DNA from: Bacteroidaceae bacterium
Lineage (GTDB): Bacteria > Bacteroidota > Bacteroidia > Bacteroidales > Bacteroidaceae
Direction of reading: 5' to 3'
Length of the DNA stretch: 64,000 nucleotides
NCBI GenBank assembly: GCA_017442185.1
Contig: JAFSAT010000024.1
Coordinates: forward strand, 62,001-126,000
Shown here: positions 21,330 to 45,912 of the stretch, in pieces
How positions within the stretch are numbered: position 1 is the first letter of the stretch
Layout of the letters: each line of letters starts with the position of its first letter
Made by a program: the position numbers and the translations under genes
The notes under the pieces: model-generated
Seen by the model: only the letters and a program-made list of their open reading frames with translations
What the model was told of the DNA's origin: nothing
Databases searched by the model: none

Positions 21330-23174
21330 ATGAAAACAAGTGTCAGTAAAATAATGCTCCTGATGATGCTGTTCGTTGTTTCGGGGATATATGCCATCGA
21401 AGACCCTCGAAAGAAAGATCCGCTTATTGTTACCGGTGCATTGGGAACACAGAGTACACTTTACTATTCGTCGGGTGTAGGCAGCGCTTCGCCCCTCAAT
21501 TACTCTATGTATGCCAATCTGAATGTAAACTTATATGGTTATAATATGCCCTTTGCGTTTTATTATAGCAGTAATAACTATTCATTCACACATCCGCAGT
21601 TTGCATTTAATTTCAGCCCAACATACAAAGGTTGGACACTGCATCTTGGTCGTCGCTCTATGCCTTTCTCGTCCTACGTCTATAATCTGCCTTTTAACGG
21701 TGTCGGGCTCGAATATAAGAGTACACAATCGGGTTTGCGCTTCGGAATATTTTATGGTATTTTGCGTGATGCCGTTAACTTCGTTCCAGGCGAGATGCCG
21801 TCGGGGCGTCCCGTTTATAAGCGTTCGGGTTGGGGGTTGAAGTTGGGCTATGGCAACAGTCGTAACTACTTAGACCTCTATCTGTTCCGCTCGCAAGACC
21901 ACCGCTCGTCGATAGACGAAATATGGTACGACGAGGTTAATGCACAAGAGAATATCGTTGTAGGTGTAAAAGGACGTTGGCAGATTTTCAAGCCTCTTTC
22001 TATTACAGCAAATATAGCAACCTCGATATTTTCGACGGATATCACCGCTCCCGAGGTTCCGCTCGACAAGGTTGAGAAGTATGACAAGATTTTCGGAGTG
22101 CGTTACAGTTCGCTTATGCGATGGGCTGGCGACGTAACTCTTGCCGCTAATTTCAAGAAAATATCTATGTCGCTGTTCTATAAGCATATACAGCCCGATT
22201 ATATGAGTATGGGTGTATCTTATATGAATAACAACTATCACAATATAGGAACGGCAGTGAATCTGCGTTTGGGTAAATTGAATATGGGAGGTAACTTCTC
22301 GTTGCAAGAGGATAATCTCTCGGGTGAGCAGTTATATACTACGCGCGGACTCTCCTATTCGGCAAACCTGAATATGCCCATCGGTAATAAATTCTCAGTT
22401 TCGGCCAACTACAACGGTTTTCGTCAGTGTCAGTACGACGGAACGGCGCAGGTAAACGATACAACCCGCATCAACCGAAATATGAACAGTTACACTGCTA
22501 CGCTATCCTATAATACAAGCAGCGAGAATCTCGGGCACTATGTATCGTTGTCGGCAAACTACTCGTTGAACGAAGATTATAACAGAACCATGGCCGGTAC
22601 AGGCGATGTTGCCACCACAGCCTTAGGAGCCAACTATTCGCTTAGCGTGGTGCCTATCGAGACAAATTTCGGTCTTAACTACAGCTACCAGCGTTCCGAA
22701 GGTTATGACTCTGAATATACCACAGGAGTATATACTTTGAGTGCCTCCAAGGCGTTGTTAAAAGAGCGTAACCTATCGCTTAACGCCTCAGCATCGGTTG
22801 TCGACAACAGAATGGATGGCAGCAAGAGTCTCACACTTGGTGGTAACGTGTCGGCGGCATATACCTTGGCCAAAGTGCACGGCTTCAGTCTTAATCTAAA
22901 TTACAGCAGATTTTCGAACACCAACCTTGTGGCATCCTCGTATCAGCACGAGGGTGGATACGACTTCTCATGCTCGTTCAGTTACAGCTACTCGTTTACT
23001 GCATTCAGTATTAAGCGTCGTCCAAAGGAACAGCACTCGCGCTACGGAAAATACGAATACTACTCCGACTTCTCGCGTGCTGCCGTGCGTGAGCGTATGT
23101 TGCTCGAACATCAGCAAAAGAAGAACATAGAGAACCGACAGAGAATGAACAGCGTCGAGGCATCGGCAATGTAA
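21330..23174 (+). CDS. Outer-membrane beta-barrel protein, first gene of the giant-protein operon
   Basis: 614 residues with a signal peptide (MKTSVSKIMLLMMLFVVSGIYA). From about residue 30 it is a run of alternating, aromatic-rich amphipathic strands (MYANLNVNLYGYNMPFAFYY, WTLHLGRRSMPFSSYVYNLP, VSANYNGFRQCQYD). This is typical of a large outer-membrane barrel, and the final strand of that type is CSFSYSYSFTAFSI. A charged tail of about 55 residues follows (RRPKEQHSRYGKYEYYSD...), which is unusual after the last strand and may reach into the periplasm. It is not a TonB-dependent receptor: there is no plug or TonB box. The motif SYTHPQF-like / NFSPTYKGWTLHLG resembles barrels that I recall upstream of TANFOR giant proteins in other Bacteroidota. 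Only 22 nt separate it from the giant gene. The likely role is anchor or export pore for the system (inference). Confidence 0.78.
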   Translation: MKTSVSKIMLLMMLFVVSGIYAIEDPRKKDPLIVTGALGTQSTLYYSSGVGSASPLNYSMYANLNVNLYGYNMPFAFYYSSNNYSFTHPQFAFNFSPTYKGWTLHLGRRSMPFSSYVYNLPFNGVGLEYKSTQSGLRFGIFYGILRDAVNFVPGEMPSGRPVYKRSGWGLKLGYGNSRNYLDLYLFRSQDHRSSIDEIWYDEVNAQENIVVGVKGRWQIFKPLSITANIATSIFSTDITAPEVPLDKVEKYDKIFGVRYSSLMRWAGDVTLAANFKKISMSLFYKHIQPDYMSMGVSYMNNNYHNIGTAVNLRLGKLNMGGNFSLQEDNLSGEQLYTTRGLSYSANLNMPIGNKFSVSANYNGFRQCQYDGTAQVNDTTRINRNMNSYTATLSYNTSSENLGHYVSLSANYSLNEDYNRTMAGTGDVATTALGANYSLSVVPIETNFGLNYSYQRSEGYDSEYTTGVYTLSASKALLKERNLSLNASASVVDNRMDGSKSLTLGGNVSAAYTLAKVHGFSLNLNYSRFSNTNLVASSYQHEGGYDFSCSFSYSYSFTAFSIKRRPKEQHSRYGKYEYYSDFSRAAVRERMLLEHQQKKNIENRQRMNSVEASAM

Positions 23175-23196
23175 AATACGATAAAATTATACAGTT

Positions 23197-26100
23197 ATGA
23201 TAAAGCACAGACTATTTATATTAGTTGCCCTTATATGTATGCTGCAATGTGCAAATGATTTGTTTGCGCAGGTTACGGTATCTGTTACACCACGTCAAAA
23301 CCCATTGCCGGCGCAGGGTGCTGTGTATATGACCGACCCGGGACGTTACTTCAATGTCTCGCTCACAAATACATCGGCTTCAGAACTTATCCCTGTGCGT
23401 CTCGAAGCACGTATCGAAGGCCCTATTGAAGGGGGCTTCGACATTCTCCCCGACAACGGTTCCTATCTGGCCATAAGTGCCCAGCGCACAATGCCGGTGT
23501 ATATACCGCTCAGCCCGGGGCATACACGTGTATTGACGCAGACCGACCTCTACAATATGTTCCGTCAGTACGATGCAGGAACCGAAATGTTCGGTGGTGG
23601 CGAACTTTATGATATTCTTCAGGGTGGCAGCGGCAACGGCATATTCGGTATTCTGCCCGAAGGACATTATGGACTGAAAATTACGGCTAAGACAAACTAC
23701 ACCGAATATAACGACGCCGGCGATGTTCTTGGCGAGGCTGTCTGCTTCTTTGATATATGCTATAATGCTTCCGCTCCAAGTTTCAACAATATAAAGTATA
23801 TCAATGGCGATATATCGGCCGAGGCCGACCTGATTAACCAAGATGGTTATAACACAGCTTATTTTCCAACCGCCAATCCACGCTTTTCGTGGAACGAGCC
23901 TGCATTTAACAACACAAGGCTCAGTATAACACGACAATTTCTGTACGATTTCAGAATATATCAGCTTGCAATAAATCAGGAGCCGAGCGATGCCATTCTT
24001 TACAATGGCAACATTGCATTTGAGCAGTTGGGACTGATGACACCATATTGCGTTGTGCCTTATAATGTTGTAGCCCGTCTCAAACGTTATGCCAATGTGA
24101 AGTATGTGGCGCAGGTAACAGCCCGACCGCTTGTTACGGATGTTTCCAACCCCAATTACACAATCTTAAGCAACGAGGGTAAGAGCGAGATTGTTGTGCT
24201 TCTTATGGAGGATGATGCTCTTGGCAAGGGTGAGGATATGGATATTGTAGTAGACAACTCTACAAGGGAGTATCCGATAAATGTGGCAATATCACCAAAA
24301 TACACCGAATTGCCGGCGGCTATGTATAGCTATTTTGAAACTCCCGGCAAACTGTTCAATGTTACTCTTGAGAACACATCGGGCGAGAATATTCCCGTGT
24401 GTATGTTGTTGCAGTATTTCAAAGGAAATTGGGGCGTTACGGCTGCTCCTGCACGTCAGCACACAAACAAGTATATCGAGATTCCCGCAGGTGAAAAGAT
24501 TAATCTCTCCGAGGAGCAGATAAACGAGCTTGCCGGCGGTTACGACTTTGATACCGATGTTATAGCATTCAAGGCTAAGACCGGCTTTATCATGGGCAAG
24601 CCCACAAGCGAATATTTCAGTGAAAAGATAGACACTGCTTTTTTGCGCGTGTGTCGTTACACCGGTGGTAAGCCTGTGCTGCGCGAGACTATCATAGGAA
24701 AGGGCAGAGCAGAATTTCAGACAAATCCCAACGTGCTTGATGGCGAGATGTTCAACATTTCGTTTGAACCCAAAATGCCCATCCTGCCGGCCGATGGCAA
24801 ATACTACTTTACCAAACCTTCGCGCATCTTTAAACTGAAGATAAAGAGCCTTGCTCCCAACGCAATACGAGTGTTCCCGGCACTTCAGATAGGCGAGAGC
24901 ACAGGTGTCGGCGACGAAAAGGATATATATAACGGCAGCTATTTCGCCGATGTCAAGCGTATGGCCGATAACTATTTAACCTTTAATCCGGGTGAGACAA
25001 AAACATTTACCGACGAAGAATTCGACCGCTTCTTTGGTGGTTTTATGGAGGTTAAGAGTGTGGTAGATGGCGAAGATGGCCTTATCACCGATTTTTCTAC
25101 GATAAAATTCGAGGAACAAGTATACAGCAACCTGATGCTTTTGGATTATGACAGGCTGAGTATGCTCGACCTCAAAAAGGAATCGGCATCGTCGGCGCTG
25201 CTTATGCAGTATGAACAGTCGCATCAGGTATCTTCCGAAGTCAAGTTGGGAGATGTGGATATTACGATAGAGCCTGTAAAGAATTTTCCCGTAAATGGCG
25301 ATGTGTATATTGAGAATCCGGGTCGCATATTCAATATAGTTCTTACAAACCTAACCGACAAGGACCTTAAACTGATTCCGGGTATCACATACGAGAACCG
25401 TATAATAGACGAGGAGACCTACTCCTACGCTGCGGCAAAGTTCTTTAACGAAAAACCCGAATTTGTGCTTCGAGCAAAGGAGAAAAAAGTTCTTGACCGT
25501 AATTTCCTCAAACAATTCTGTGGCGACGAAACTGCAGTGCGTCATATCTTCTCAACCGATGAGAATGAATTCGATTTCACAGATTTCGACGAGATTATAA
25601 CCACCGAGGATGCCAACCACATGAAGTTCACACTTGTCAATGCCGACAGTGTAAGAGCTATTCCAAAAGGTAGCGAGAACCGCTCGGAGCGCTTAACGGT
25701 TGCCACGATGCAGCACGATTTCTGGGCAAATCCCGATTATATCTTATATGATATTGATATTGAGATAAAACCAAAGATGAATCCGATGCCCTATAATACA
25801 AGGGCCTACTTTACCAAACCCGAGCAACTTTTCGAGGTGTGGCTATCAAATGCAAGTGATGAAGACCTTGATATAATTCCTCTTATAAAGTACAACTTCA
25901 ACGGTGACTATGATGTAACATATCTTTCCGGTTCATATAACGATCCGAACATTCCTATAATCACAATTGAGGCCGGAACCAAGAAGCAGATGAAGGATGA
26001 ATATGTAAATAAGTTCTTTGCCGGGAAGAAGTTCTATAAGATGGTGGAGCAAGAGAGTGGCCACCCTGAACGTACAGAATACAACATCTATAATGCCGAC

Positions 26101-29100
26101 AAGGATATTATAATAGACCCGGAATTGTTTAGCAATGTCGAATTCGTTGCACTCAGTCCCAAATATTTGGATGCTTTGGGTACAGGAGCCGCGCTTGTCG
26201 ACTTCTATTTGGGAACCGGAAATTTGGGCTTTCAAGTGTCGTCCACAGTGCGTTTAGACGATGTCAGCGTGTCGGTAAAACCAAAAATGCAGCCTCTGCC
26301 TGCCAATGCCGATTTGTACTTTAACAGCCCGGGTACACTGTTCGACATAGAGCTTAAGAACAATACTCTGCATGAGTATAAGGTTATACCTAATATAATG
26401 TATCTGTTCGACGAATTTGGTTCATACTATGGTTCGGTATACGACGATAAACGTCTCGAAAAGTTCATTACTCTTGCTCCGGGCGAGATTAAGCAGATAA
26501 CGGCGTCCGACCTTAATGCTTTATGCGGAAGCCCCGATACTATAAAATGTTTCGAGGCACGTCTTGATGGATTTGTCGAAAAAGCAATTCCCGATATAAA
26601 TGAGATTCTTAATCTTGAGGCCTTCAATCAGATAGAGGTTATTGCTTACTGTGTCGATTCGCTAAAGTCGCTTCCAAAAGAGATGGATGATCGCAAGACA
26701 CGCGCAATGCTTGGCGGAGGAAAGTCTGATTTTATTGCCAAGAATATAAAATTTGAAGAGGTTGTTGTGACTATTGCTCCCAAAGCCGGCGCCGATTTTC
26801 AGCCCGAACCTGATAAATATTTCGAGAAGCCCGGCGACCTGTTCGAGGTTACACTGCTTAATGTAACCAATGAGGAGCAGAAAGTAAATCTCCGCCTTAC
26901 ATACAATCATCAATATTTCATAGATAAGCCCGACAGTGTGATTACTCTTAAACCCGAAGAGAAACTTAAACTATCGGCCAATCGTTTGAACAATATCTGC
27001 GGATATGATATGTATAGCTACGGTGCTCCTCTGTTTGAGTGTGACTCCCTTGGCAATGTAAAGAAAGAGAAACCCGATGCAACGGATATTAAGATTCCAA
27101 AGGGAGATAATACAGTAACGGCGCTTGTGTGGAAAAAACTTATAGAGGACGAACTTAAACCCGAGGAATTTAAGGTAGATTCAGTGTCGGTGTGCGATAC
27201 AATATTCCAGCCGGCACTGCGCGATGTGTGGATAGGTGAATATCGTCTCACACTCACCGATTTTGAAAAGATTTCAGGAAAAGACCCCGAACAAAAAGAG
27301 ATGGGGAACGACTGCTTCAAGGGTAAGGGATATGTGCATACCACAGTGATGAATACTCCTGTACGTTTGGCAGTTGAATACGATAGTATATATATTGATA
27401 ACGAACTGCAGCGCGTAGTAAAGAACAATGTGCGAACAATAACCGAGGAGAGTGCTCATGTACCGCTCGACCTCTTTAAAGAGGAATTTGTAAAGGAACT
27501 CGAAAAGACCGACAAAGAGGGTGCCGAGGCCAAAGTAGACCAATTCCTGAAAGAGAGCAATGTGGGTGCATTCTACACCTACGTAATAGGCAATGCAATG
27601 CAGACCATTGGTAAGATAGACTCGGCCGCAGTGGTTAAGTTGCCGGTGGGACTTACCGTGCCTCTCGATAAAGAGCTTGAATGTCCGGCAACAATCCAAC
27701 TTGCCAAGATGGAATTTACTCCGGTAGATGCAAATCTGGATCTGATAGGTGAATTTGTGCTTCCCGAAAGCCCCGACCCCGAGAATCTTGCATATAGCGA
27801 TATTCTTATCTTTGCAGCACGTAAACTATCAACCTCACCCGACGAATTTCTGCCTAAGAGCGGTTCATTGGGTCTTGTAAAGGACTTTAGATTAGAAGAC
27901 CCATCGTCGGATTTTATATTCACATTCAAGGCGCCTACCAATCAAGATTACAGCAAGGCGACAGACGGCTGTTTCATTGCTTGGGAAAATGGCGGTTTCA
28001 AAGAACTGTGCGCAAGTATATCAATGAACATCCCCTCATCGGTGATTGTAAAGGATAATGGAAAAGATGCAATTGATGAAAATGTGCATCCCGAGGTTAC
28101 ACTGACAGCTTTTATTGCCGATGCCGAAGATTGGTTTGCAACCGTAAAGATGGATCCGTTCCAAATTACAAGTGCGCCCGGTTACACATTCAGCGCAGTG
28201 GGCGATTCGGTGGGTATTGTGTTCGACCGCTCTAAGCGTCGTACCCCGGCAGGTATTAAGTTCCCCGCAAACTACGACTACGATAAGGATGGTCTGGGGC
28301 TTACTGCCGACCCGGGTACAAATGAGCAGGCCTACAACGAGTGGCAGGGCTTCTATTTCGAGGAACTCAGTTGCAAATTGCCGCACTTTGTAGAGCTTGA
28401 CGATAAGAACGATTCACGTGTTAAGATAGCTGTCAATGGTATTATTTACGACGAGTCGGGATTCTCAATGGGGGTAGAGGTGGATAGTCTGCTCAATCGC
28501 GGAACACCCAAAGTGGGCGGTTGGCGCATCACCATCGACAAAATATTTATGCACGTCAAACAGAGTCATTTTGGCGATGCAGGATTCAATGGACGAATAG
28601 AGGTTCCGCTATTATATAAAAAAGGTACAAAGGACAAGGCGCAGATTGGCTACAAGGCTGCGGTGACTTCGGTTGACCACGGTGCAAAAAAAGGTCTTGC
28701 CGTAAACTTTGGTATGCAACAGATTGAGGATTCAATCAGCCTCGATTTTATGTTGGCCAATGTCAATTTCTACAAAGACAGTACCTATTTTAATATAATA
28801 TATTGCGACACTCTGCCCGAAGAGAAGCAGACGCTTGTAGAATTGTGTCTCGACGGCGATGTGGAGATTACCTGCACAGAGAGCATCGACTTTAAGCTGC
28901 CAGCCATCCCATTCGAGAATATGCGTATCGCTAACTTCGAGAAGGATGAGCTTGATAAGAAAAAAGATAAGAAATCTGATAAGAAAACCGAGAATAAGTC
29001 TCTGAAAGATCCTAACGGAGAGACCGACTTCCACACAGGACGCTGGGCATTGGCAGGCGACCCGGGAGAGGATGAGGGCAGCTTCTGGGGAGGTATGCCC

Positions 29101-38100: not shown

Positions 38101-38109
38101 GTGCAGTAG
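23197..38109 (+). CDS. Giant exported multidomain protein: TANFOR-like repeats, EF-hand, LRRs and a C-terminal L7/L12-like domain
   Basis: 4,970 residues in one uninterrupted frame, with a signal peptide (MIKHRLFILVALICM...FAQ). Order of parts: (a) seven tandem TANFOR-like beta domains starting near residues 27, 361, 518, 686, 852, 1024 and 1189, each with a pattern like VxVxPKxxPLP...YFxxPGxLFxVxLxN. (b) About residues 1340-2760, a long beta-rich region with amphipathic strands, a Lys/Asp linker (1917-1934) and a Gly/Ser/Asn linker (about 2302-2323). (c) About 2760-3350, FN3-like and helical parts. (d) An EF-hand loop DKNDDGRLHIDE at 3362-3373. (e) Leucine-rich repeats at about 3400-3985 (LDCSNNYLTELVLD). 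(f) Three ~300-residue modules starting at about 3998, 4312 and 4610. (g) A domain at 4904-4970 closely matching ribosomal L7/L12 C-terminal domains (VIKALQEMFGLSLTEAK, EIKKKLEDAGAVVTVQ). No T9SS tail is present. It probably acts at the cell surface; its function is unknown. Confidence 0.85.
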   Translation: MIKHRLFILVALICMLQCANDLFAQVTVSVTPRQNPLPAQGAVYMTDPGRYFNVSLTNTSASELIPVRLEARIEGPIEGGFDILPDNGSYLAISAQRTMPVYIPLSPGHTRVLTQTDLYNMFRQYDAGTEMFGGGELYDILQGGSGNGIFGILPEGHYGLKITAKTNYTEYNDAGDVLGEAVCFFDICYNASAPSFNNIKYINGDISAEADLINQDGYNTAYFPTANPRFSWNEPAFNNTRLSITRQFLYDFRIYQLAINQEPSDAILYNGNIAFEQLGLMTPYCVVPYNVVARLKRYANVKYVAQVTARPLVTDVSNPNYTILSNEGKSEIVVLLMEDDALGKGEDMDIVVDNSTREYPINVAISPKYTELPAAMYSYFETPGKLFNVTLENTSGENIPVCMLLQYFKGNWGVTAAPARQHTNKYIEIPAGEKINLSEEQINELAGGYDFDTDVIAFKAKTGFIMGKPTSEYFSEKIDTAFLRVCRYTGGKPVLRETIIGKGRAEFQTNPNVLDGEMFNISFEPKMPILPADGKYYFTKPSRIFKLKIKSLAPNAIRVFPALQIGESTGVGDEKDIYNGSYFADVKRMADNYLTFNPGETKTFTDEEFDRFFGGFMEVKSVVDGEDGLITDFSTIKFEEQVYSNLMLLDYDRLSMLDLKKESASSALLMQYEQSHQVSSEVKLGDVDITIEPVKNFPVNGDVYIENPGRIFNIVLTNLTDKDLKLIPGITYENRIIDEETYSYAAAKFFNEKPEFVLRAKEKKVLDRNFLKQFCGDETAVRHIFSTDENEFDFTDFDEIITTEDANHMKFTLVNADSVRAIPKGSENRSERLTVATMQHDFWANPDYILYDIDIEIKPKMNPMPYNTRAYFTKPEQLFEVWLSNASDEDLDIIPLIKYNFNGDYDVTYLSGSYNDPNIPIITIEAGTKKQMKDEYVNKFFAGKKFYKMVEQESGHPERTEYNIYNADKDIIIDPELFSNVEFVALSPKYLDALGTGAALVDFYLGTGNLGFQVSSTVRLDDVSVSVKPKMQPLPANADLYFNSPGTLFDIELKNNTLHEYKVIPNIMYLFDEFGSYYGSVYDDKRLEKFITLAPGEIKQITASDLNALCGSPDTIKCFEARLDGFVEKAIPDINEILNLEAFNQIEVIAYCVDSLKSLPKEMDDRKTRAMLGGGKSDFIAKNIKFEEVVVTIAPKAGADFQPEPDKYFEKPGDLFEVTLLNVTNEEQKVNLRLTYNHQYFIDKPDSVITLKPEEKLKLSANRLNNICGYDMYSYGAPLFECDSLGNVKKEKPDATDIKIPKGDNTVTALVWKKLIEDELKPEEFKVDSVSVCDTIFQPALRDVWIGEYRLTLTDFEKISGKDPEQKEMGNDCFKGKGYVHTTVMNTPVRLAVEYDSIYIDNELQRVVKNNVRTITEESAHVPLDLFKEEFVKELEKTDKEGAEAKVDQFLKESNVGAFYTYVIGNAMQTIGKIDSAAVVKLPVGLTVPLDKELECPATIQLAKMEFTPVDANLDLIGEFVLPESPDPENLAYSDILIFAARKLSTSPDEFLPKSGSLGLVKDFRLEDPSSDFIFTFKAPTNQDYSKATDGCFIAWENGGFKELCASISMNIPSSVIVKDNGKDAIDENVHPEVTLTAFIADAEDWFATVKMDPFQITSAPGYTFSAVGDSVGIVFDRSKRRTPAGIKFPANYDYDKDGLGLTADPGTNEQAYNEWQGFYFEELSCKLPHFVELDDKNDSRVKIAVNGIIYDESGFSMGVEVDSLLNRGTPKVGGWRITIDKIFMHVKQSHFGDAGFNGRIEVPLLYKKGTKDKAQIGYKAAVTSVDHGAKKGLAVNFGMQQIEDSISLDFMLANVNFYKDSTYFNIIYCDTLPEEKQTLVELCLDGDVEITCTESIDFKLPAIPFENMRIANFEKDELDKKKDKKSDKKTENKSLKDPNGETDFHTGRWALAGDPGEDEGSFWGGMPIVLEKISMEVGDGAEKLGFYIEGGIVVMGNKKFGLGCTAGLTIWSKIDWEEMSLSYDRVEFNTIHVEGQFAGMVSVVGDLTVAEEEEKSGFDAELEIKVKGLFEMDVAGGYYKIQKGDEEFKLDDADEKNDKYYHAGFFVADAKLPPIPIGPVSLKGISGGFFINYSVPMSAVEGTDDFVTTLKENLKPKYKSYGGMFGVDLVVGEETLIKGNATMLLMIDIQKDGVRCPGVLFQGNVAALCAPDSDEGLINSKITILYEDTTTPDLTDEEMQTMSKADIAANLEKKKDEHKLFRLSITVDADMAGVYKQFTGEELQIKNPMVGLEEFDQKNADSENQGEQNNTESSSGAAESKGYIKAGASASIGLELEVRNYPAQDKTFWHLYVGEPDESKRCRITFIDFEFGRKSPVGLWAKLYANAYLCLGNELPGDGQLPPLPDKVSEALGMKGADGKVDNSLKGKIAAAREQTMKGGPAGGINGGIMLGAAIGAEIGCNAVFCYADVEGMLGFDLILKQYKEGIKCTDGRRAGGKNGFYATGQFYAMLKGELGLMINLWIFEGKVPLVDMTLGALLQGGFPNPTWVYGRLRAKGSVLGGLIKFSSTIEMKAGKICVPEMGNPLDDIKVFGDINPGDEDIEIGWADKSLVSCYGKSTFTTNMKIGKVLTLVDEGETMERAGMDGDGNNVLRKYVFYLDKQFELCKYDESDNTNDNRTKITTYVTHINPTYDQENYEIQLGALQPRTLYRIKLRGTCKEIVDGDEVNPIYKDTITGKKVNRPYEDKRYVYFRTDNLSDDINKEVANYLPNLTPFTQTLDEVTQPSFMEMHERPDYWLNPDHEFVASIKVYDSKTNTYVFPDARDGLRKGQITKYDNLQVVEIVEQGIDESNNNFKFATVTLQNPVPREYFKTSDKVRFEIRRINRAQLDSYMDMVEESYKNILALTKEDMAEYESQLDAMDAAIAEGDKKAGDKNTNQAIRDLYNYYKEMSDLYGENEAEQRMKEYKEELKANTSAFAEVVYTQDYKYNGQASFLDYVTKSDNWSYSGSDANDTNTSTVYCQMVDIVTKEEAAMVNSYDPNAVYGFRTTENRSNNPYFALNYWNSTAAVWRAPKYDFCSRPFDECNFSGSTSLSYNLTYPYLRNGISEGSKYSDTQYEVGLNPKFAVDWFKYNDMTTYTRNASGKKKIFKIVWYAIYNDAYLAENLESKLKLYYNSDLKYGIEKNKKKDIKNLVDRYADNGSMIQVYSNFVSDGGYSAGSRSWVQIPRWQIALMYAADHTGKYGLKANNSRSATSSYKYFTGQWSTFKADNYLNRIKELKVRIRFSDGYNIAEASGKGRVEPTKFGVRPSTSAKRTAIISCNINGKGVNGITDNNISINREEYVTIGDPVMLEYLLTNYDKNDDGRLHIDEMAAITTLKLDFSTIKGKVTRPNQPVPGIVSLDALKLMPNLKKLELLNNMNGDMSNSAYNKFHAMNKTLRLDGNPKLQELTLEKWYVDSLDLRYNTELRKLNIDMRSMYNRTPPKITTVRNSEGVSYLDVSKCTKLWDLRVIGCFIEKLDLSNIATLEVLDLRMNCLSHLDISASYKLSENFVKAGFQTYKTAKGRVISSYIKYLDVKTFGLSNSSADYMNQSSVNYKARFTKEASRDKGVGTLDSNLYSYMYDEAMKVKKTVFEWASAQTTLRVPGLKIKSLKNLDAWMPKLTLIDVSDNELTELDLTGFAELKQVYANNNRLADIKVRGDNNKIYWLEVSNNSLSSLPIDAMPKLSHLKCANNSIDIIYPNVNTELNYLDCSNNYLTELVLDKMTKLTTLKCSYNKLTNGNFKIPANANLHTFEAAGALGDIDEIDLSSSTNIRIVNVANNPSLKRLKLAATTSRLEELIANDCALTKIYNGGNNFSLFNYDSQYKPKSTMAWLNEVNVANNPGMSLTVVYNYANYQRLRAIDVTGCNILAVYLHGTNINYLTRLCAGVPQRTSGYKVEIKAFSNKWYNRWDEWKDYPENRHTTFMRLYTTPYPYSCVGSYDLSCPTRVETITEDDKKLRAAMGETFYNHMKEKLRPDSLGYRALHVENVKNLTELQCANMQIVDLDGILKYMPKAKVVNAMGNEMKTVILKNLNGVDKLDLSNNAALDSLSFNYQYSKLDELNLSHSYVNEYGLVEALNVARNKKLIVDGDIGPTVLEVAKYKYRCNIKEMSLVSKGRNYVLYNLVADKLTVGGKSLKFFMGSTGSYTAYSRIEHLYLADSAEPIELIFTSADMALLWLNKWINDNPNRKFTMRIETDDASINNSVNSLLSVVNNVTKNGISRLDDNVRQMANSYVLKYAWEEKVPKGELFRDVLDDYDLHEKRSNDDVKMRDAMGSKLYLLLKKQYAPAREYLHVEDVKKVTTLDCKDCGIVNLTNVLKYMPSVTTIKASGNRLRSVTLGENGRLTSVDLSGSTVALDTLKFKNTVLTLDLSKNTINSRVLDAAIINTVNTLTINGAVGINMGVNTSTTCVKTFTTDNNTLRLYKAKFQGLNFTGKYLYFYRDMSEISVSNLKLGAKTQYELNFSTADNALKFIAEWSENNIQTSGNAPKFNMTVGSNSNTRTLLSSYNTLAKAGNGFLTVNKKKAVEAIITAVNRGYVTKGSGYDRMITYLNSIGLADIQTAEDVELKNALGSMMYNHYKNKYASTKKYLHTTDVKGITTLDAERTELVNLTTVLKYMTNVTTIYAGYNDIANIDVSAHNRVIKTLDLSNNTKLSTLKLKKSGVQNIDLSYSRISSDILKTALNNCSGTVTVNGNYGNQLLTLSNVTAGRLDMRSTNRILQLSSCTLSKLTFGGQKLIFEGDLSKCKISDFVINRPSGSVTVQFHSADAALMWVEYWYKNTPTTSFTIELIGSNSSNSTSIKARLVSINNTLRRGGKINETTRTQLYDVIKLAVSSYGLKQGSMYGNYVKVIGQSGDKTVTIQSISSKIGVIKALQEMFGLSLTEAKNKYVDVLPSVVGKFSSSEAAEIKKKLEDAGAVVTVQ
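35188..37905 (+). repeat. Three tandem ~300-codon modules inside the giant gene
   Basis: Modules start at about 35188, 36130 and 37024, with periods of about 940 and 895 bp. Each begins with an LRAAMGxxxYxxxKxKxxP-like helix. Then come LHxxDVKxxTTLxC, an LKYMPxVTTI LRR-like strand set, and (S/T)ADxALxWVxxW before an Asn/Thr-rich helical end. They are diverged at DNA level, so the duplication is not recent. Confidence 0.75.
37906..38106 (+). other. Segment encoding the L7/L12 C-terminal-like domain (last 67 codons of the giant gene)
   Basis: Residues 4904-4970 align without gaps to the heart of the ribosomal protein L7/L12 C-terminal domain. VIKALQEMFGLSLTEAK corresponds to VIKAVRGATGLGLKEAK of the E. 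coli protein, and KKLEDAGAVVTVQ to KKALEEAGAEVEVK. This alpha/beta fold normally contacts translational GTPases on the ribosome. Confidence 0.8.
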
Positions 38110-38157
38110 TTATTTAAAATGAGTATACCCGTAAGTGAAAAATAAAAAAAACAATAT

Positions 38158-40476
38158 ATGAAACGATTATTCAGTTTAAAAGGAGTAGCTGTGGCAGCGG
38201 TGCTGTTAGGAACAGTGTCGTTGCAGGCAGCAAATGAAAATAACAGTGATGCTCTGAGAATTAAAAAGCATATATATCAACCGATTGTTGTAGCAAGCGA
38301 TACAATTGTTACAGAGGAGGTTGATGTAAGCAGAATGAGCCAGAAAGAGTATGAGGAGTATCTGCGCACTGCACCTGTCGATACAACCATACGCGACTCT
38401 GTTACAGTGGCCTTTTCTGTAAAGTTACTCGCACGTCCCAAAGGAGACAGGGTGTTGTTGCGTTGGGCTCCCGATGAGTTTGCTCCTTGGTATCTTGCCA
38501 ATAAGTATGGATATAATATATTACGTATGAATCTTGATGATGGTGTGATGGACACAATCAAGAAGAATATATTTCCGATGAGTCTCGAACAGATGAAGCA
38601 GCACTTCGAGCCTGCCGACTCCTTGGCTGCAGCTGCGGCACAGATGATATATGGCAAGGGTACCGAACTGAATAATGCAATTGTCGGCAGTGGTGCCGAT
38701 GGTATAATGCAGGTTTATGAAGAGCAGCAGACACGCTTTGCATACGCTATGCTGCTTGCCGAGATTCGTCCCGATATTGCCGAGGCTATGGCTCTTATGT
38801 ATGTCGACAGTACCGCCGAAAAAGGGGAGCGATATATGTATGTAGTAACAACAAACATTCCTAAAGAAGAGGCCAATATGACCTATCAGGGAGTAGATGT
38901 AAAGAATGTGCTTGAAAAGCCTGCAAAGTTCGAGCCGCATATAACCGACTCTTTGGGCAGCGATGGTCTTTCGATGCGTATATTCTGGCCTATGGAGCCG
39001 GGTTATACGGTCTATGATATTGAGTGTCGCTATAATGGCGGTGAGTGGAAGAAACTCAATGAGCGTCCCTTTATGACACTTATGACCTACGAAGACGAGA
39101 GTGTGGGGCAGAATATCTACGAGTATGCAGGAGTGCAGCCCGGTACTTACGAATTTCGCATCTGCGGATATGACTCTTTTGGCGAGAAGAGTAATTACAG
39201 CAAATCTCATAAGGTTGAAATGCCGGATATAATTCCTCCTACAGCTCCGCTTATAAAGAATTTCTATCTCGACCGTCCCGACGAAAATACCGTGGTGGCA
39301 GATATTGTCTGGGAAAAGAACATCATCGAACCCGATTTTGTCGGTTACGATATTTACTACTACAATCCTCAAATAGACAGTGCTTGGGTGAAATTGAACG
39401 ATTATACCGTTGCGCGTGAAGATACAGTGTTCCGCTGCGAGGTCACATATCTTGGAACGGGTCGAGTGACGGTGGTGGCAAAAGATACATTGGGTAACTC
39501 TTCGGCCTCTATGCCACAGGAGATGTTCATTGCCGATGTTACAGCACCGGCTGCACCCACCAAGTTGGAGTATGTACTATCGCCCACAGGCAGCCTGCTC
39601 ATAAAATGGCAGAAGAGTGTGGATGCCGATGTTGCAGGCTATCAGCTATACTATGCCAACGACTCTACACACACCTTCTTGCAAAAAGCGGGTAAGAGCA
39701 CACGAGGAACAGCCATCTTAGATACACTCGCCGTAAACGGTGTTATACAGAGATATACCTATTATCGTGTAAAGGCGTATGACTTCTCGGGTAACGAGTC
39801 GGAATTCTCAGAAATTCTTTCGGTGAAGCGTAAGAATTACGACCCGCCACGTCCTTGCCGTGTCGACTCAGTGTGGCAAGATACAAAGGCTGTGTATATG
39901 AAATGGTACCCATCGTCCGAAGCCGATGTGGAGAAATTCTATGTCTATCGCCGTCTCGATGGAGAGAATATAAGTTCTCTGATAAATGTCCTAACAAAGG
40001 ATTCTGTGAAAAACGGTCGATTGTGGGTGGTAGACTCGCCGCAACCCAACCAAAAGAAACGTTATTTCTATCACATAGAGACAATGAACGAGAGCGGCAT
40101 AACATCCGAACCATCGTATGAAACCTCTTTCCTGTTTAAAGGGGATATGCAGTTGCACGTAAAAATTAATCTCGGAGCGAGCTACCGCGAAGATGAAGAG
40201 AAGGTTTATGTAGCTTGGGATCTCTCAGGACTGACACAAGAGATGATAGATGCAGGAGTATATTTCTGCCTTTATAAAAAATGGGACAATGATGATATAT
40301 TCCGTCACATCGAGTCTGTAAATATTAAAAACAGATATACCATAGACAATCACATGAAGCCCGGTGATGGAGCAGAGTATCGTATGCGTCTGCGTACAAA
40401 AGATGGTCGCCTAAGCCCCTACTCAAATGTGGTAAAGGTGAGAGTACCCGAAAAAAACGAGCAAAACAATGAATAA
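38158..40476 (+). CDS. Exported protein with FN3-type repeats, partner of the giant protein
   Basis: 772 residues with a signal peptide (MKRLFSLKGVAVAAVLLGTVSLQA). Near residue 100 it has RWAPDEFAPWYLANKYGYNI, a motif I recall from proteins encoded directly after TANFOR giants in other Bacteroidota. A helical part follows (about 140-230; AAAAAQMIYGKG, FAYAMLLAEIRPDIAEAMAL). From about residue 255 to the end there are four or five fibronectin type III-like domains, e.g. PPTAPLIKNFYL, TAPAAPTKLEYVL, VDADVAGYQLYY and YYRVKAYDFSGNESEFSE. No lipobox and no T9SS tail. FN3 domains mediate protein-protein contacts in secreted proteins. It lies 48 nt after the giant gene and 46 nt before the lipoprotein gene, so it is in the same operon. 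Confidence 0.82.
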   Translation: MKRLFSLKGVAVAAVLLGTVSLQAANENNSDALRIKKHIYQPIVVASDTIVTEEVDVSRMSQKEYEEYLRTAPVDTTIRDSVTVAFSVKLLARPKGDRVLLRWAPDEFAPWYLANKYGYNILRMNLDDGVMDTIKKNIFPMSLEQMKQHFEPADSLAAAAAQMIYGKGTELNNAIVGSGADGIMQVYEEQQTRFAYAMLLAEIRPDIAEAMALMYVDSTAEKGERYMYVVTTNIPKEEANMTYQGVDVKNVLEKPAKFEPHITDSLGSDGLSMRIFWPMEPGYTVYDIECRYNGGEWKKLNERPFMTLMTYEDESVGQNIYEYAGVQPGTYEFRICGYDSFGEKSNYSKSHKVEMPDIIPPTAPLIKNFYLDRPDENTVVADIVWEKNIIEPDFVGYDIYYYNPQIDSAWVKLNDYTVAREDTVFRCEVTYLGTGRVTVVAKDTLGNSSASMPQEMFIADVTAPAAPTKLEYVLSPTGSLLIKWQKSVDADVAGYQLYYANDSTHTFLQKAGKSTRGTAILDTLAVNGVIQRYTYYRVKAYDFSGNESEFSEILSVKRKNYDPPRPCRVDSVWQDTKAVYMKWYPSSEADVEKFYVYRRLDGENISSLINVLTKDSVKNGRLWVVDSPQPNQKKRYFYHIETMNESGITSEPSYETSFLFKGDMQLHVKINLGASYREDEEKVYVAWDLSGLTQEMIDAGVYFCLYKKWDNDDIFRHIESVNIKNRYTIDNHMKPGDGAEYRMRLRTKDGRLSPYSNVVKVRVPEKNEQNNE

Positions 40477-40522
40477 ACCTCTTTTGATAACAGTTTCTTA
40501 ACCACTGTAAAACAAGAAGACT

Positions 40523-41218
40523 ATGAAACTGATTAAAAATTTTTACATAATATTGGCAATGGCGGCATTGACATCCTGCGGCGAGCTGTTCAACTTTGAA
40601 GAGGCAAAACCGGCTCCTTTGGGGATAGCACTGTCGCACCACGAGGTTGATATTATCGTGGGTGACACCATAATATTAGATACCTATATAACCCCGGATA
40701 CCGTAGAGGTGTCGTATCATTGGGAGGTGTATGACGATGTCGACGCGGTGCAACTGATAGGTCGTCGTGTATATGCCAATAAGTCGGGAAGAGCCAAAAT
40801 AGTTGTCGAGGCAACAGGCTATGATGCCGAGAACAACAAGGTGCTGTTTACCGACAGCTGCTTTGTAAATGTGTTCGAGTGGAAAGAGTGTAATCCGGCC
40901 GAATATCTTTACGAAACTGTGGTATATGCCTCCTTGATGATTGACAACGAACTTATGAACGACTCTTTGGGCGACACACGCTTGGTTGCCATTGTCGATG
41001 GTGAGGTGCGTGGCGAGGCTGTCATGCGCGAGGCGCACGCTATCCCATACCTTGAGATGCGCATTGCCGCTGCTTGGCCGGGAGAGTCGGCGCAGATTCA
41101 GTGCTACCACAAAGCAGGGCATGAACGCTTCGTATTTGAGACACTGCCTTTGCATGGCGGTACGTATGGTACACTCTCCAAACTGAGGAGCTACAAAATC
41201 ACAGGACGTAAACAGTAA
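40523..41218 (+). CDS. Outer-membrane-type lipoprotein with an AFVxGExRG-type domain
   Basis: 231 residues. A lipoprotein signal ends in the lipobox ALTSC (Cys19). The N-terminal half (residues about 30-125) is an Ig-like beta-sandwich (ALSHHEVDIIVGDTIILDTY). The C-terminal half (about 130-225) has YETVVYASLMID...LVAIVDGEVRGEA...AQIQCYHKAG. This is the same pattern that occurs twice in the T9SS protein at 17727 (VVYAVVD...VAAFVDGELRAV; VGAFVGDECRGEG). It is encoded 46 nt after the FN3 gene and 21 nt before the small T9SS gene. Anchoring the surface complex to the outer membrane is a reasonable inference; nothing catalytic is visible. Confidence 0.78.
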   Translation: MKLIKNFYIILAMAALTSCGELFNFEEAKPAPLGIALSHHEVDIIVGDTIILDTYITPDTVEVSYHWEVYDDVDAVQLIGRRVYANKSGRAKIVVEATGYDAENNKVLFTDSCFVNVFEWKECNPAEYLYETVVYASLMIDNELMNDSLGDTRLVAIVDGEVRGEAVMREAHAIPYLEMRIAAAWPGESAQIQCYHKAGHERFVFETLPLHGGTYGTLSKLRSYKITGRKQ

Positions 41219-41239
41219 TAACCGATAAAAACCGAGAAT

Positions 41240-41746
41240 ATGAGAAAGCTACTTTTATTTTTATTCGGATTGATTATGACCACAACGGCTTTTGCCGATG
41301 GTAAGCTGAAACAATATGATAAGATTGTAATAATTCTTACAGATGGACGTGTATTCGATATAGAGATTGACGCCGAATCGTATGTCTACTCCTTTGTCGA
41401 AGAGAGGGGGAGCGGCATGGTGCAGTTAATAGAGGTCATAGGTACACGCGAAGAGTATATCTTTGAACGCGGCGAAATAAAGTCTGTTAAGTTTGTTGAA
41501 GCTCTTGATACACGAATAGATGATGTCGCCGATGTAAGTGAGAAAAATCCTATGCGTTATTTCGACGGTGTGCTCACATTTCATCGTTCACTGATTGGCG
41601 AGAAACTATATGTGTACGATGTAGCCGGCAAGACAATGCTCACAGCCATAATCAGCGATGGTGGCGTAGTCTCTATTGCGCATCTGTCGAGCGGTACATA
41701 CGTTGCAAAGGTAAAGAATATTAACATTAAAGTAATAGTACGATGA
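41240..41746 (+). CDS. Small secreted protein with a T9SS sorting domain
   Basis: 168 residues with a signal peptide (MRKLLLFLFGLIMTTTAFA). The N-terminal domain, about 75 residues, has the pattern KIVIILTDGRVFDIEID ... REEYIFERGEIKSVKFV, known from many short Bacteroidales secreted proteins that read like DxVxIxxxDGxxxxFxL ... VxxFxF. The C-terminal ~70 residues form a type-A T9SS sorting domain (EKLYVYDVAGKTM, LSSGTYVAKVKN, KVIVR). The stop codon overlaps the next start (ATGA), so translation of the 1,374-residue protein is probably coupled to this gene. Confidence 0.78.
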   Translation: MRKLLLFLFGLIMTTTAFADGKLKQYDKIVIILTDGRVFDIEIDAESYVYSFVEERGSGMVQLIEVIGTREEYIFERGEIKSVKFVEALDTRIDDVADVSEKNPMRYFDGVLTFHRSLIGEKLYVYDVAGKTMLTAIISDGGVVSIAHLSSGTYVAKVKNINIKVIVR

Positions 41747-44700
41747 AACGGTTATTAAATTACATATTATTGGCAATGATAGCCACATTCGTACTTGCTC
41801 CAACGGTTGTTGCACAGGTGGATTTTCAACAATCTTTCGGAGTGATGCGTAAGAATGGCAAGCATCTTATGCTTCCCGAGGGCGGTAATTGGAAAATATC
41901 TTTCTCTAATAACGACTCCATAGGAAACAGTTATCGTAAACCTGTTCAGATGCTTTTCGATGGCGCCTTATACCCGGACACATTAGGGGTGTTCATCAAC
42001 GACATCGACAGTCTTATGTTTGAGATACCCGAGATGCAGTATGCGGCAGGAGTGTTCGAGATTAACGAGCGTCTGTTTGATTTTATCGTAGAGAGCGATA
42101 CTGTGCGCACTATTTATTTCAGAATAGACTGTCTTACAAAAGTTCCAATACCAAAGGTGGGGCAAAAGGTTATTTGCAATATCTTTCGCGGTAAACTTCC
42201 CAACGGTTTCATGGGGCGTGTCGAGAAGATAAACGTCGACTACATACAAGGATGGGTAGAGATGAAGTGTGGCACATTGGGGCTCGAAGAGGTTTATGAT
42301 GTATTATATACAAGCGGCGTGTCGGGAGTGTCGCCCGACCAAGAGGCAACACCGCAAGAGATTGTGCAAAGGAGAATGGTGCTCAAAAAGCTCCCCACAC
42401 GTGCCGACGGTGGTGATGATAACATGAGTACCGACTTCACAGATGTTGTAAATAAAGTGGAGTCTATAACCGAGGTTACTGCTATTGCAAGGAAACTTTC
42501 CATCAGTAACAAGGGTAAGATAAAAGTCACAGCATTGGAAGAGGATGATGACGACGATAAGGATAAAGATAAGGATGAAGAGAATAAAGAGGAGTGGCCA
42601 ATATCATTTACAGCGAATGTAAAGGCTACAAGCGTTGCACATTTCTCTGTTATATTGGATAGGTATCTGGATATTAAGAGGATTGAGGCCGGTGTAGATT
42701 TTTCGGCCGAGGGAAAGGTTACATTTGAAGCAAGCGTCGATTTTAAACCCGACGAGGATGATAAGAAAGAATTCGATTTTATTACCGTGCCCATTCCGGT
42801 GGTTGTAATTCCGGGAGTGAGTGTGAATATAGATTTTGGAATCACCTGGGACTATCTGTTAGAGGCAAAAATAAGCGGAGAAGCCGGTATCAGCATTAAA
42901 AGGTCGGTGGGTTTTATTGTAAGTGGTGATGATAAAGATGTCACTTGGACAGACACTAAAGAGAATAATAAAAAGAATCCCATGCAATTTGAAAAAGATG
43001 CTTCGGGCGAGATAAGTCTTAAGGGTGAACTATTCCTTGCTTTTCACGTTAAGGTCGGAATTGGTATTGCAGGTGAGGGGTTGGAATTCCAATTTAAATT
43101 TGGTACCGGGCCTAAAGTGTCGGCGCAGTTGACATATAAATTCGGTCAGATAGACCGGGATGTATCGGACAAACCCGACTGGTTCAACGAGAGAGTCGAT
43201 ATGTATAGCAGCCTTAACGAAGGAACTAACTTTGTTGTGGAGTGGGGTGCATTGGTAGATATGGGATTTTATGTAGCCAATGATGCTTTCTCGTTTACAT
43301 TAAGCGATTTTTTGGAAAAATTTAATATACCGAATGTGCTCTTCTGGGAAATATTCCGCTTGGATGCTGTGCCAAACACTAGCGAGATAACAAAAAGAAC
43401 ATTCTCGAATTATGAGTATAAAGGTACATTAAAAAACAGTCTGAGACTTATCTTCCCCTATGATGCGGGAATTATATTTGTAGATGATTCGCCTTACGCT
43501 TTGTATGACGAGGTGCCCGATTATGTAGCCGAAAATATAGGTGAATTTAAGGCTATACATCCGAATGATGTAAGTTTCAGCATAAATCTCAATAAGCCCG
43601 AACTTAAGGGGCGTCAGTTGTCGATATATCCTTACGCTTACAATACTTTCTTCACCGGATATGGTGTCATTGGTAAATTAGATGAGCTTTATATTCCATA
43701 TAAGGTTACAATGCGCGATGTTCAAAAAACTTACGATAATTGTTCTATTAAGGCTTCTTTTGAGAAAGATGTGCTTTTAAGTCCATATATTAACGAGGGT
43801 GGTTTTATTCTTAAGGACATAGAGACAAATGAGGAAATTGACCGAATAAAACTTTTCGAGGGTGGAGTGCCTAAGGATACAACAATGGAGGTAAATCTTA
43901 AACGTCACGACTACTCAAAAGAGACCTTTAAAGCTGTGGCATATATCTACGATTCGGTAAACGACCAATATATGTATAGCTATACTTGGGATGCCGGATT
44001 CCAAAGTTATTACGCTCCCGAGACTCTCGAACCGGAGGAGCTGACATCGGTAGGTGCGGTGCTCAGCGGTTCGGTACATCAATCTGTATTGGACGAGGAG
44101 GGTTACAACCATATCGACAATAAGTTCAGCGTAGGATTTACTCTTAACCCGGGTAATCAGACCTTTACGGCGCTGCTAAATGACTTTAGAACGCGAGGTT
44201 TCTATTGGGATGTCGATGGCAAGTTACAGCCCGAGAAGGAGTATACCTATCGTGCATTTGTGATTGACAACGCAACAGGGAAGAAATTTATGGGCAAGGA
44301 GATTCAGTTTAAGAGTAAACCTGTGTTCTACGACTTTAAGGCGAGTGTAAACTACGATAATGTATTCCTTGGAGCAATGACAGACAGAGGCTTTGTTGGT
44401 GTATCTGACAAGTCTAAGTACAAGGTTGTAGTGAGCGAGGATCAGAACACTTGGGAGAATGATGGCGGCATCGAGCTGGATGGCAACCAACCCTACGATC
44501 GTAGCGATTATCTCGACGAAATGGTTATTGTGAGAATTTTTAAGATAGATGCGTCGGAGATTACTCGCGATCACGAAAAAGCCGATTATGATATTGGAAT
44601 ATTAAGTGAGAAAGGCTGGGAACCGGGTCGTACATACTATGCAAAGGTTATTTACGACGATGGAGTAAAAGAACGTATAGAGACAGATCCTATCTCATTC

Positions 44701-45867
44701 AAGATTCCTGCACCTTTAGATAATATCAGAGTTGCGCCTGAGGCCGATGAGGCTCAGTTTGTAGCAGATGTAACTTATCCTTACGGAGAGGGAAAATCCG
44801 AGATAACAATCGAATATTCCAAAGATGTGCAGGATATTTATATGGGGACTGCCGATGACGAGCGTGTCGATTATAAGGCTCTTTGGAGTCTCGATAAGGG
44901 AAAATACATATATACTATGTTACATGTGTTGAAGGAACTCGACCCCTCTACAACATACTACTTCAGATATTTGGTGGAAAAAACGGTAGAAGGTGTTAAA
45001 ACCACATATAAGAGCGAGGTTGGCACATTCAAGACAAAGAAACTTGAATATAAGGTTACACTCGACCCACCAAGTGTAGAGGGCAACAACGGTACACTAA
45101 AAGGGCGCGTGAACGACCTCTTGTGGAAACTCATCAACGACTCTATAAAAACCGAGGCTGATAAAAACCGAACGGTATTCTTTGAAATATCGAAAGAGAA
45201 AACCATGACCGATCCTTTGGTGATTTTCAAGAGTGTGGATGAGGGTCTGAAGGATGATAAACACGAATGGGAATTGGATTTACCCGACCTTAATTGGGAC
45301 TCTAAACTGCACTGCCGTCTGTCGGTGCAGCCTGCGCGAAGTGAGAAAATCTATCGCAGCGAGGTGAAAGTTCTGAATGTGGGCAGCAAACCCGAGAACG
45401 GATTTAATGTTCAGACTTTCGAGGCTGTTCTTAATGATGAGTGGACAACACTTAAGGGTAAGGTAAACAGTGATGTTCTTAATGTGATAAATACAATGGG
45501 AACAGATAAGGTTTTTGTGGGATTCGAGTATGCACCAAGCAAATCTGATATTCAGAATGATACAGAGTATGTGACAAGGGAGGTAGATGTTACACTCAAT
45601 ATGTCTACCGGACTGTTCTCTAAGGCGTTGCAGCTTAAGCCGAATACAACCTATTATTATCGTTCGTTTGTCTATTATGAGAATAAATATGTCTATGGTA
45701 GTATTGTTTCATTTACCACTGCCGACTACGATGCGGGATTGATTGTTCCCGATATGATTAAGCGTCGTCAGCTTGAGCTTGATGCGGTTATGAACACTGC
45801 TGTCGACATTGTAAGTGATGATATTATAGTATTTGAAAAGCGTGAACTTCCCAAAAGAAGGGAATAG
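41743..45867 (+). CDS. Large exported protein with beta-rich core and FN3-like C-terminal domains, last gene of the operon
   Basis: 1,374 residues with a signal peptide (MKRLLNYILLAMIATFVLAPTVVAQ). An acidic/lysine linker lies at residues 268-284 (EEDDDDDKDKDKDEENK). Residues about 285-480 are amphipathic strands, like the middle of the giant protein (GKVTFEASVDFKP, VEISGEAGISIKRS-like, FLAFHVKVGIGIAGEG). From about 640 to the end there are several FN3-like domains with closing strands of the type LDPSTTYYFRYLVE, LKPNTTYYYRSFVYY and GSIVSFTTADYD. There is no recognisable enzyme motif, no lipobox and no T9SS tail. Its 4-nt overlap with the preceding gene and the hairpin terminator just after it define the operon end. 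The shared strand pattern suggests it assembles with, or is distantly related to, the giant protein (inference). Confidence 0.78.
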   Translation: MKRLLNYILLAMIATFVLAPTVVAQVDFQQSFGVMRKNGKHLMLPEGGNWKISFSNNDSIGNSYRKPVQMLFDGALYPDTLGVFINDIDSLMFEIPEMQYAAGVFEINERLFDFIVESDTVRTIYFRIDCLTKVPIPKVGQKVICNIFRGKLPNGFMGRVEKINVDYIQGWVEMKCGTLGLEEVYDVLYTSGVSGVSPDQEATPQEIVQRRMVLKKLPTRADGGDDNMSTDFTDVVNKVESITEVTAIARKLSISNKGKIKVTALEEDDDDDKDKDKDEENKEEWPISFTANVKATSVAHFSVILDRYLDIKRIEAGVDFSAEGKVTFEASVDFKPDEDDKKEFDFITVPIPVVVIPGVSVNIDFGITWDYLLEAKISGEAGISIKRSVGFIVSGDDKDVTWTDTKENNKKNPMQFEKDASGEISLKGELFLAFHVKVGIGIAGEGLEFQFKFGTGPKVSAQLTYKFGQIDRDVSDKPDWFNERVDMYSSLNEGTNFVVEWGALVDMGFYVANDAFSFTLSDFLEKFNIPNVLFWEIFRLDAVPNTSEITKRTFSNYEYKGTLKNSLRLIFPYDAGIIFVDDSPYALYDEVPDYVAENIGEFKAIHPNDVSFSINLNKPELKGRQLSIYPYAYNTFFTGYGVIGKLDELYIPYKVTMRDVQKTYDNCSIKASFEKDVLLSPYINEGGFILKDIETNEEIDRIKLFEGGVPKDTTMEVNLKRHDYSKETFKAVAYIYDSVNDQYMYSYTWDAGFQSYYAPETLEPEELTSVGAVLSGSVHQSVLDEEGYNHIDNKFSVGFTLNPGNQTFTALLNDFRTRGFYWDVDGKLQPEKEYTYRAFVIDNATGKKFMGKEIQFKSKPVFYDFKASVNYDNVFLGAMTDRGFVGVSDKSKYKVVVSEDQNTWENDGGIELDGNQPYDRSDYLDEMVIVRIFKIDASEITRDHEKADYDIGILSEKGWEPGRTYYAKVIYDDGVKERIETDPISFKIPAPLDNIRVAPEADEAQFVADVTYPYGEGKSEITIEYSKDVQDIYMGTADDERVDYKALWSLDKGKYIYTMLHVLKELDPSTTYYFRYLVEKTVEGVKTTYKSEVGTFKTKKLEYKVTLDPPSVEGNNGTLKGRVNDLLWKLINDSIKTEADKNRTVFFEISKEKTMTDPLVIFKSVDEGLKDDKHEWELDLPDLNWDSKLHCRLSVQPARSEKIYRSEVKVLNVGSKPENGFNVQTFEAVLNDEWTTLKGKVNSDVLNVINTMGTDKVFVGFEYAPSKSDIQNDTEYVTREVDVTLNMSTGLFSKALQLKPNTTYYYRSFVYYENKYVYGSIVSFTTADYDAGLIVPDMIKRRQLELDAVMNTAVDIVSDDIIVFEKRELPKRRE

Positions 45868-45874
45868 TGTGGGT

Positions 45875-45912
45875 CGCATCCTCACAACCTCTTCAAAGGT
45901 TGTGAGGATGCG
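45875..45912 (+). terminator. Terminator of the giant-protein operon
   Basis: A perfect 16-bp stem, CGCATCCTCACAACCT / AGGTTGTGAGGATGCG, with a 6-nt loop. It starts 8 nt after the stop codon at 45867 and is followed by GTGTTTATATTT. Confidence 0.9.

Follow-up and report, generated by a model that had tools for sequence, protein, structure and literature searches.

Results

The window, i.e. the whole stretch of 64,000 nucleotides (nt) of contig JAFSAT010000024.1 (positions 62,001 to 126,000; assembly GCA_017442185.1, a Bacteroidaceae bacterium), carries on its plus strand a module of at least eight genes that includes a giant protein of 4970 amino acids (aa). A previous, sequence-only reading had described six of these genes as the operon of an uncharacterised surface system. 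The coordinates of the six open reading frames (ORFs) and the gaps of 22, 48, 46, 21 and −4 nt between them were borne out. They encode an outer-membrane beta-barrel of 614 aa (21330..23174; AlphaFold2 model), the giant itself (23197..38109), a 772-aa protein with FN3 repeats and an RWA...W motif (38158..40476), a lipoprotein of 231 aa (40523..41218) with a lipobox, TSCG, read by eye and with orthologues in congeners, a 168-aa protein with a type A sorting tail of the type IX secretion system (T9SS; 41240..41746) and a secreted protein of 1374 aa (41743..45867) showing a weak FN3-like match, below cut-off, in its C-terminal part. The extent of the module had to be enlarged by one gene on either side: upstream, a secreted 1114-aa protein with a T9SS-like C-terminal tail, recognized by eye, and no Pfam family at E 1e-5 (17727..21071), and downstream, a lipoprotein-like gene of 134 aa (45937..46341), which in congeners takes the eighth place in the module. 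Both flanking terminator-like hairpins were recovered on the plus strand. The one of 9 pairs at 21089..21113 follows the 1114-aa gene, ahead of that for the barrel, and was the single site found there, against 0.7 (standard deviation (sd) 0.8) in shuffled sequence; the one of 18 pairs at 45873..45914 is the longest of 8 sites in 8.4 kb, where 6.0 (sd 2.5) were expected, and together with 69 nt it separates the 1374-aa gene from the 134-aa gene.

Most of the protein features that had been claimed could be found again. Signal-peptide-like starts and the lipobox-like start of the 231-aa protein are present, as judged by eye. The FN3-repeat protein matched an FN3-like profile, whose own cut-off lies far higher, at E 3.9e-9, and among 12 aligned homologues the R, the W and the second W of its motif are invariant and the A nearly so. 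The T9SS tail of the 168-aa protein exceeds the NCBIfam cut-off (TIGR04183, 27.3 versus 23 bits) but falls short of Pfam's (16.3 versus 27 bits). The predicted structure of the first gene product is indeed a large beta-barrel, with about 25 strands and a short C-terminal helical extension (pLDDT 81.7, pTM 0.65). Its nearest folds include barrels of the size of MtrB and of ushers; it matched no Pfam family at E 1 and no NCBIfam family, and its profile found no match among PDB sequences.

Behind its signal peptide the giant carries seven TANFOR-like modules (aa 26-164, 362-458, 521-614, 688-825, 855-949, 1023-1163 and 1189-1330), the first of which, with its continuation, covers aa 26-340 (23272..24216) and the other six, at a spacing of about 160-170 aa, aa 362-1330 (24280..27186). 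The core region follows at about aa 1345-2680 (27229..31236), and its part from aa 2340 to 2680 is conserved phylum-wide. The clearest stretch of leucine-rich repeats (LRR) lies at aa 3643-3826 (34123..34674), and the protein ends at aa 4908-4970 (37918..38106) in a domain resembling the C-terminal domain of ribosomal protein L7/L12 (PF00542, E 4.7e-12), present in one to five copies per giant in nine congeners. Mean identity to eight congeners peaks at 0.85-0.91 over aa 2401-2600 and reaches its minimum, 0.10-0.13, over aa 4601-4900. In Pfam and NCBIfam scans only LRR_4 and PF00542 exceeded the cut-off and no toxin family was found; a match to PT-VENN, a pre-toxin domain, at aa 2439-2465 inside the core stayed below cut-off (E 0.066). 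The same databases gave no match to a C-terminal T9SS sorting domain (Por_Secre_tail), and the giant as a plain T9SS substrate by sequence was rejected for want of this tail. No immunity gene was seen downstream, where the FN3 gene follows the giant in the window as in nine of nine congeners. The tails of 13 Bacteroidales giants were likewise devoid of toxin families: four contain LRR families, classical in L081 and L086 and of BspA/DUF285 type in L091 and L100, and the other nine gave nothing over cut-off. The core profile found no match among PDB sequences. A low-confidence model of the core matched mostly outer-membrane barrels in Foldseek/VIA (SlpA, SprA, LptD, PapC and porins), at Foldseek TM-scores (normalised to query length) of at most 0.16 among the rows listed and with a root-mean-square deviation above 8 in all 50 VIA rows.

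One set of relatives comprised the best 80 of 437 loci. Twelve near relatives with names (L068-L079) come from metagenome-assembled genomes, ten of Bacteroidaceae from ruminant gut sites and two of Bacteroidales. Nine congeners have intact giants of 4667-4974 aa, and in all nine the order is T9SS-tailed gene, barrel, giant, FN3, lipoprotein, small T9SS-tailed gene, 1374-aa-like and 134-aa-like gene, the upstream T9SS-tailed gene being cut by the edge of the stretch in five of them. Since this order is identical in every congeneric locus with an intact giant, it is more than chance. The 134-aa-like gene overlaps the preceding one or lies within 8 nt of it in eight of the nine. In genomes G011 and G024 the giant is short (2469 aa) and accompanied by barrel and FN3, and the tail of the one from G024 (L108) matched no LRR or L7/L12 family. 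In total the giant was detected in 17 of 44 genomes of the genus, many of which are incomplete. In 31 Bacteroidales loci (L080-L110) the barrel was found in 28 (not in L087, L096 and L107) and FN3 in 25 (not in L087, L094, L101, L102, L104 and L105); in the loci without one of them, the giant reaches, or begins near, the end of the stretch. Most initial misses in L088, L091, L092, L096 and L110 were artefacts of longest-ORF calling, and a translated search recovered two barrels (L088, L110) and three FN3 genes (L091, L092, L096).

Co-occurrence was assessed in 395 Bacteroidota genomes drawn evenly across the phylum, using profiles that include the window's own row and thresholds of 1e-5 for core and barrel and 1e-20 for FN3. 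Matches to the core were obtained in 43 genomes from 30 of 171 genera, to FN3 in 98 and to the barrel in 107. The sequence-only reading had named giants regularly found without barrel and FN3 as the observation that would speak against one conserved module; by a count made by eye, all 43 core genomes have both. On the contig and strand of the core and within 50 kb of it, FN3 was present in 42 of the 43 (in G492 it is on another contig) and the barrel in 39 (on another contig in G492, G224, G432 and G508). Fisher tests, which treat related genomes as independent, gave p values of 1.8e-30 and 2.3e-28. FN3 matches also occurred in 55 genomes, and barrel matches in 64, where no core was detected. 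In 36 loci covering up to 10 kb on each side (L112-L147) the barrel was seen in 24 and FN3 in 12. Extending 12 such loci gave FN3 in five (L179, L183, L186, L188, L190) and the barrel in seven (L181, L182, L183, L184, L185, L187, L188), in keeping with longer clusters there.

The TANFOR domain is the fourth part. With an extended TANFOR profile, matches were obtained in all 43 core genomes: in 24 the domain is part of the core ORF itself, in 15 it belongs to a different ORF no more than 50 kb away on that contig and strand, and in four it occurs on other contigs only (G224, G432, G492, G508). One genome scored as having separate TANFOR and core ORFs, G183, may have one gene with a frame break. 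The profile matched in none of 19 core-negative genomes; these came from the genomes listed as negative for core, FN3 and barrel alike, so they cannot serve as a random control. All four parts of the module, TANFOR domain, core, barrel and FN3 protein, recur jointly throughout the phylum sample and are mostly near one another. In several core-bearing genomes we also observed a second barrel beside a TANFOR ORF in which no core was detected, and a divergent subfamily is a likely explanation. Six contigs (G286:C38, G518:C35, G340:C87, G394:C12, G432:C61, G288:C94) carry barrel and TANFOR ORF, adjacent in five of them, without a detected core, and may represent a second subfamily of the system.

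The term TANFOR giant, used in the sequence-only reading, was only partly confirmed: TIGR02542 misses the window's protein, but profile-profile comparison and alignment support the relationship. The curated cut-off of TIGR02542 (67 bits) is a strict test, since no other genome attained it in searches of 48 and of 42, F. hydatis included with 38.1 bits; below it, TIGR02542 alone matched in 19 of 42 genomes of the phylum sample at E 0.05 and, in another genome set, in 34 of 48 at E 0.1. In hhalign, where E-values apply to one comparison, the N-termini of the genus aligned to those of ten other Bacteroidales giants with a probability of 100%, and the Bacteroidales N-termini to a set of four TANFOR proteins (TIGR02542 E-values 9.4e-9, 2.3e-4, 4.4e-4 and 0.01) with 99.2%; the direct comparison of the genus with these four was weak (17%). 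An LPEG.Y-type motif and other alignment columns are common to the N-termini of giant and TANFOR proteins. A single ORF of 2119 aa in L131 combines the core with a match to TIGR02542 that stays below the cut-off (E 2.3e-4), and in Niastella (L137) TANFOR and core are two genes of one cluster.

Flavobacterium hydatis DSM 2063 provides a link to toxins. On one strand it encodes an FN3 protein (688 aa), a T9SS-tailed protein (1754 aa), a TANFOR protein (1841 aa), two genes of 358 and 278 aa, two lipoproteins (434 and 447 aa), a barrel (818 aa) and a core protein (1556 aa). The 1841-aa protein agrees with WP_081912444.1 in strain, in last residue (BaCT 1542-1841) and in its upstream T9SS-tailed neighbour. 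According to Jana, Salomon and Bosis (2020, PMC7073777), the BaCT end of WP_081912444.1 is an antibacterial DNase with its immunity protein encoded downstream, FN3 and T9SS tails are enriched near TANFOR genes, and T9SS export is proposed for TANFOR proteins with the route left open. Core, barrel and FN3 genes of Flavobacteriaceae lie clustered with TANFOR proteins that have genes of their own, and for one of these toxicity has been tested by experiment. The word barrel is absent from the main text of PMC7073777, and its sections consulted mention no core protein; TANFOR otherwise occurs in an unrelated marketing paper and, once, in PMC11796102, and among the matches listed in searches lacking most subscription papers and all bioRxiv preprints no further paper on the system was noticed. 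With its TANFOR component already described as a class of polymorphic toxins in PMC7073777, the system cannot be called wholly uncharacterised. The interpretation of the sequence-only reading was supported as to one conserved module, but not as to a wholly uncharacterised system or the number of six genes.

PF00542 matches in the window's own genome are confined to the ribosomal gene and the giant. L7/L12-like repeats of giants are 31-45% identical to the host's own L7/L12 over 51-56 aligned residues. That this end is unique to the system was rejected: PF00542 occurs in other larger ORFs of four of 151 genomes of the family (G648, G588, G636, G623), each with a signal-peptide-like start by eye; a fifth match, in G564, lies in an open frame of 104 codons not confirmed as a gene. 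Secreted-looking proteins of the family with such L7/L12-like stretches are noted at L196:104-2335, L197:4079-7078, L198:6060-7646 and L199:4306-6147, and some of them end in what by eye resembles a T9SS or a dockerin sequence. The ribosomal domain has apparently been reused outside the cell. A literature query on L7/L12 domains in surface proteins did not return the L7/L12 phrase among the matches listed.

Discussion

It seems to us an even call whether the window's operon is the version, in one genus of ruminant-gut Bacteroidaceae, of a four-part Bacteroidota apparatus for surface export or display, in which a recognition arm has replaced a toxin. The giant was not filed as a polymorphic toxin because it shows no TIGR02542 match, no toxin domain and no immunity gene; the LRR, and the lack of toxin families in the tails, led us to read it as a recognition arm on the same machine. 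Sec would take the giant across the inner membrane, and the barrel, of usher or MtrB size, may serve as its dedicated outer-membrane conduit or anchor. Core and FN3 protein would assemble at the barrel, the lipoprotein would be anchored in the outer membrane, and lipoproteins and T9SS-tailed companions would help the four-part apparatus. The part behind the core would be displayed outwards and be interchangeable; in the genus it consists of leucine-rich repeats ending in L7/L12-like domains and is most likely a contact or recognition arm and not a toxin. The functions put forward in the sequence-only reading, adhesion, recognition or export, stay inferences. Three results speak against the module. 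Outside the sample of 395, G066, from the same order, showed a core protein while matches to barrel, FN3 and TANFOR were all missing from the 27 kb covered, and in G067 the 34 kb covered included FN3 and TANFOR beside the core without a barrel; G054, a 4-kb contig, contains core and FN3. More tentatively, and with rather more doubt than conviction, we suggest that TANFOR domain, core, barrel and FN3 constitute an unrecognised, Bacteroidota-specific system for protein export and display that has an outer-membrane conduit and an N-terminal targeting domain of its own. Its cargo would be toxins in Flavobacteriaceae but recognition arms in gut Bacteroidales, and it would work alongside the type IX translocon, not through it.

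The giant might instead leave the cell by the type IX system via SprA, with barrel and FN3 protein merely anchoring it at the surface. SprA is encoded in the window's own genome and in all 44 genomes of the genus, T9SS-tailed companions lie in and beside the operon, and T9SS export of TANFOR proteins was proposed in PMC7073777. The giant has no T9SS tail, however, and a barrel gene in each of the 43 core genomes goes beyond the strict need of an anchor. We regard this route as unlikely, although it is the strongest of the competing explanations. A different arrangement would result if the core were itself a membrane barrel: the giant would then display its own C-terminal arm like an inverse autotransporter, and the 614-aa barrel would be an accessory. 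The barrel-like fold matches of the core and the position of the arm after it fit this idea. The model is of low confidence, with the poor scores given above, and ApoB is among its matches, which means that long antiparallel strands alone may produce them; in Flavobacteriaceae, F. hydatis among them, the core protein has about 1550 aa and no long arm behind it. We consider a core barrel quite improbable.

Least probable of all, in our opinion, is that the giant is a TANFOR-class polymorphic toxin whose L7/L12-like end is the effector, binding for example translation GTPases of a target cell. Its N-terminus is of TANFOR type, the C-terminal part evolves fastest and varies in its number of L7/L12-like domains, and the resemblance of these repeats to the host's own L7/L12 would suit such a target. 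On the other hand, no toxin family and no immunity gene were seen, and the gene behind the giant is FN3 in the window, in nine of nine congeners and in all 25 of the L080-L110 loci where FN3 was found. The L7/L12-like domain also occurs in other secreted-looking proteins of the family, and its charged positions involved in factor binding are only partly kept.

With the TANFOR polymorphic toxins, as described in PMC7073777, the window shares a TANFOR-type N-terminus, a signal peptide, a T9SS-bearing genome and FN3 and T9SS-tailed neighbours, and the F. hydatis BaCT locus has homologues of barrel, core and FN3 protein. It differs in that seven copies of the TANFOR-like module are joined with the core in one protein, and in that LRR and an L7/L12-like end stand in place of a toxin, with no immunity gene. 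The barrel of the MtrCAB conduit, MtrB (6r2q_B), was the longest good fold match of the window's barrel model, but this barrel has no sequence match to solved structures and no cytochrome family was found in the six proteins. The likeness to the ushers PapC and FimD of chaperone-usher pili, a wide barrel of similar size, is by fold resemblance only; no usher family matched, and the six scanned proteins contain no pilin or chaperone family. Two-partner secretion and contact-dependent inhibition (CdiA/CdiB) likewise pair an exported giant with a barrel, and there are toxin-bearing relatives in Flavobacteriaceae; the window's barrel, however, has no Pfam or NCBIfam match, FhaC and POTRA types included, has about 25 strands and is accompanied by FN3 and lipoprotein partners. 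Inverse autotransporters such as intimin and invasin have the order barrel then arm in one protein, an order that the giant may share, its core model resembling barrels at low confidence; here a separate barrel gene exists in 43 of 43 core genomes of the sample.

How TANFOR toxins exit the cell is left as an open question in PMC7073777. The barrel-core-FN3 set, which no core-bearing genome of the sample lacks, provides named candidate genes for it and suggests that one apparatus also serves giants of gut bacteria without a recognised toxin.

Some minor observations concern neighbouring genes. Divergent from the module, on the minus strand at 15144..17486, lies a hybrid two-component regulator with a TPR sensor, HisKA, a receiver and an AraC-type HTH (Pfam), a possible regulator of the module. 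Relatives of it adjoin the module in five other loci (G012, G030, where it is split into two ORFs, L104, L105 and L106); for the TPR-AraC regulator beside the F. hydatis core, no relative was found in other loci at E 1e-10. Two Capnocytophaga loci (L139:12086-13177 and L136:3779-4927) have, next to the core or the barrel, a gene that from its start, by eye, we take to be PorV-like, which hints that the system is connected with the T9SS translocon. Finally, in L187 (F. davisii) the core, barrel and TANFOR genes are split into several frames, and this cluster looks decayed.

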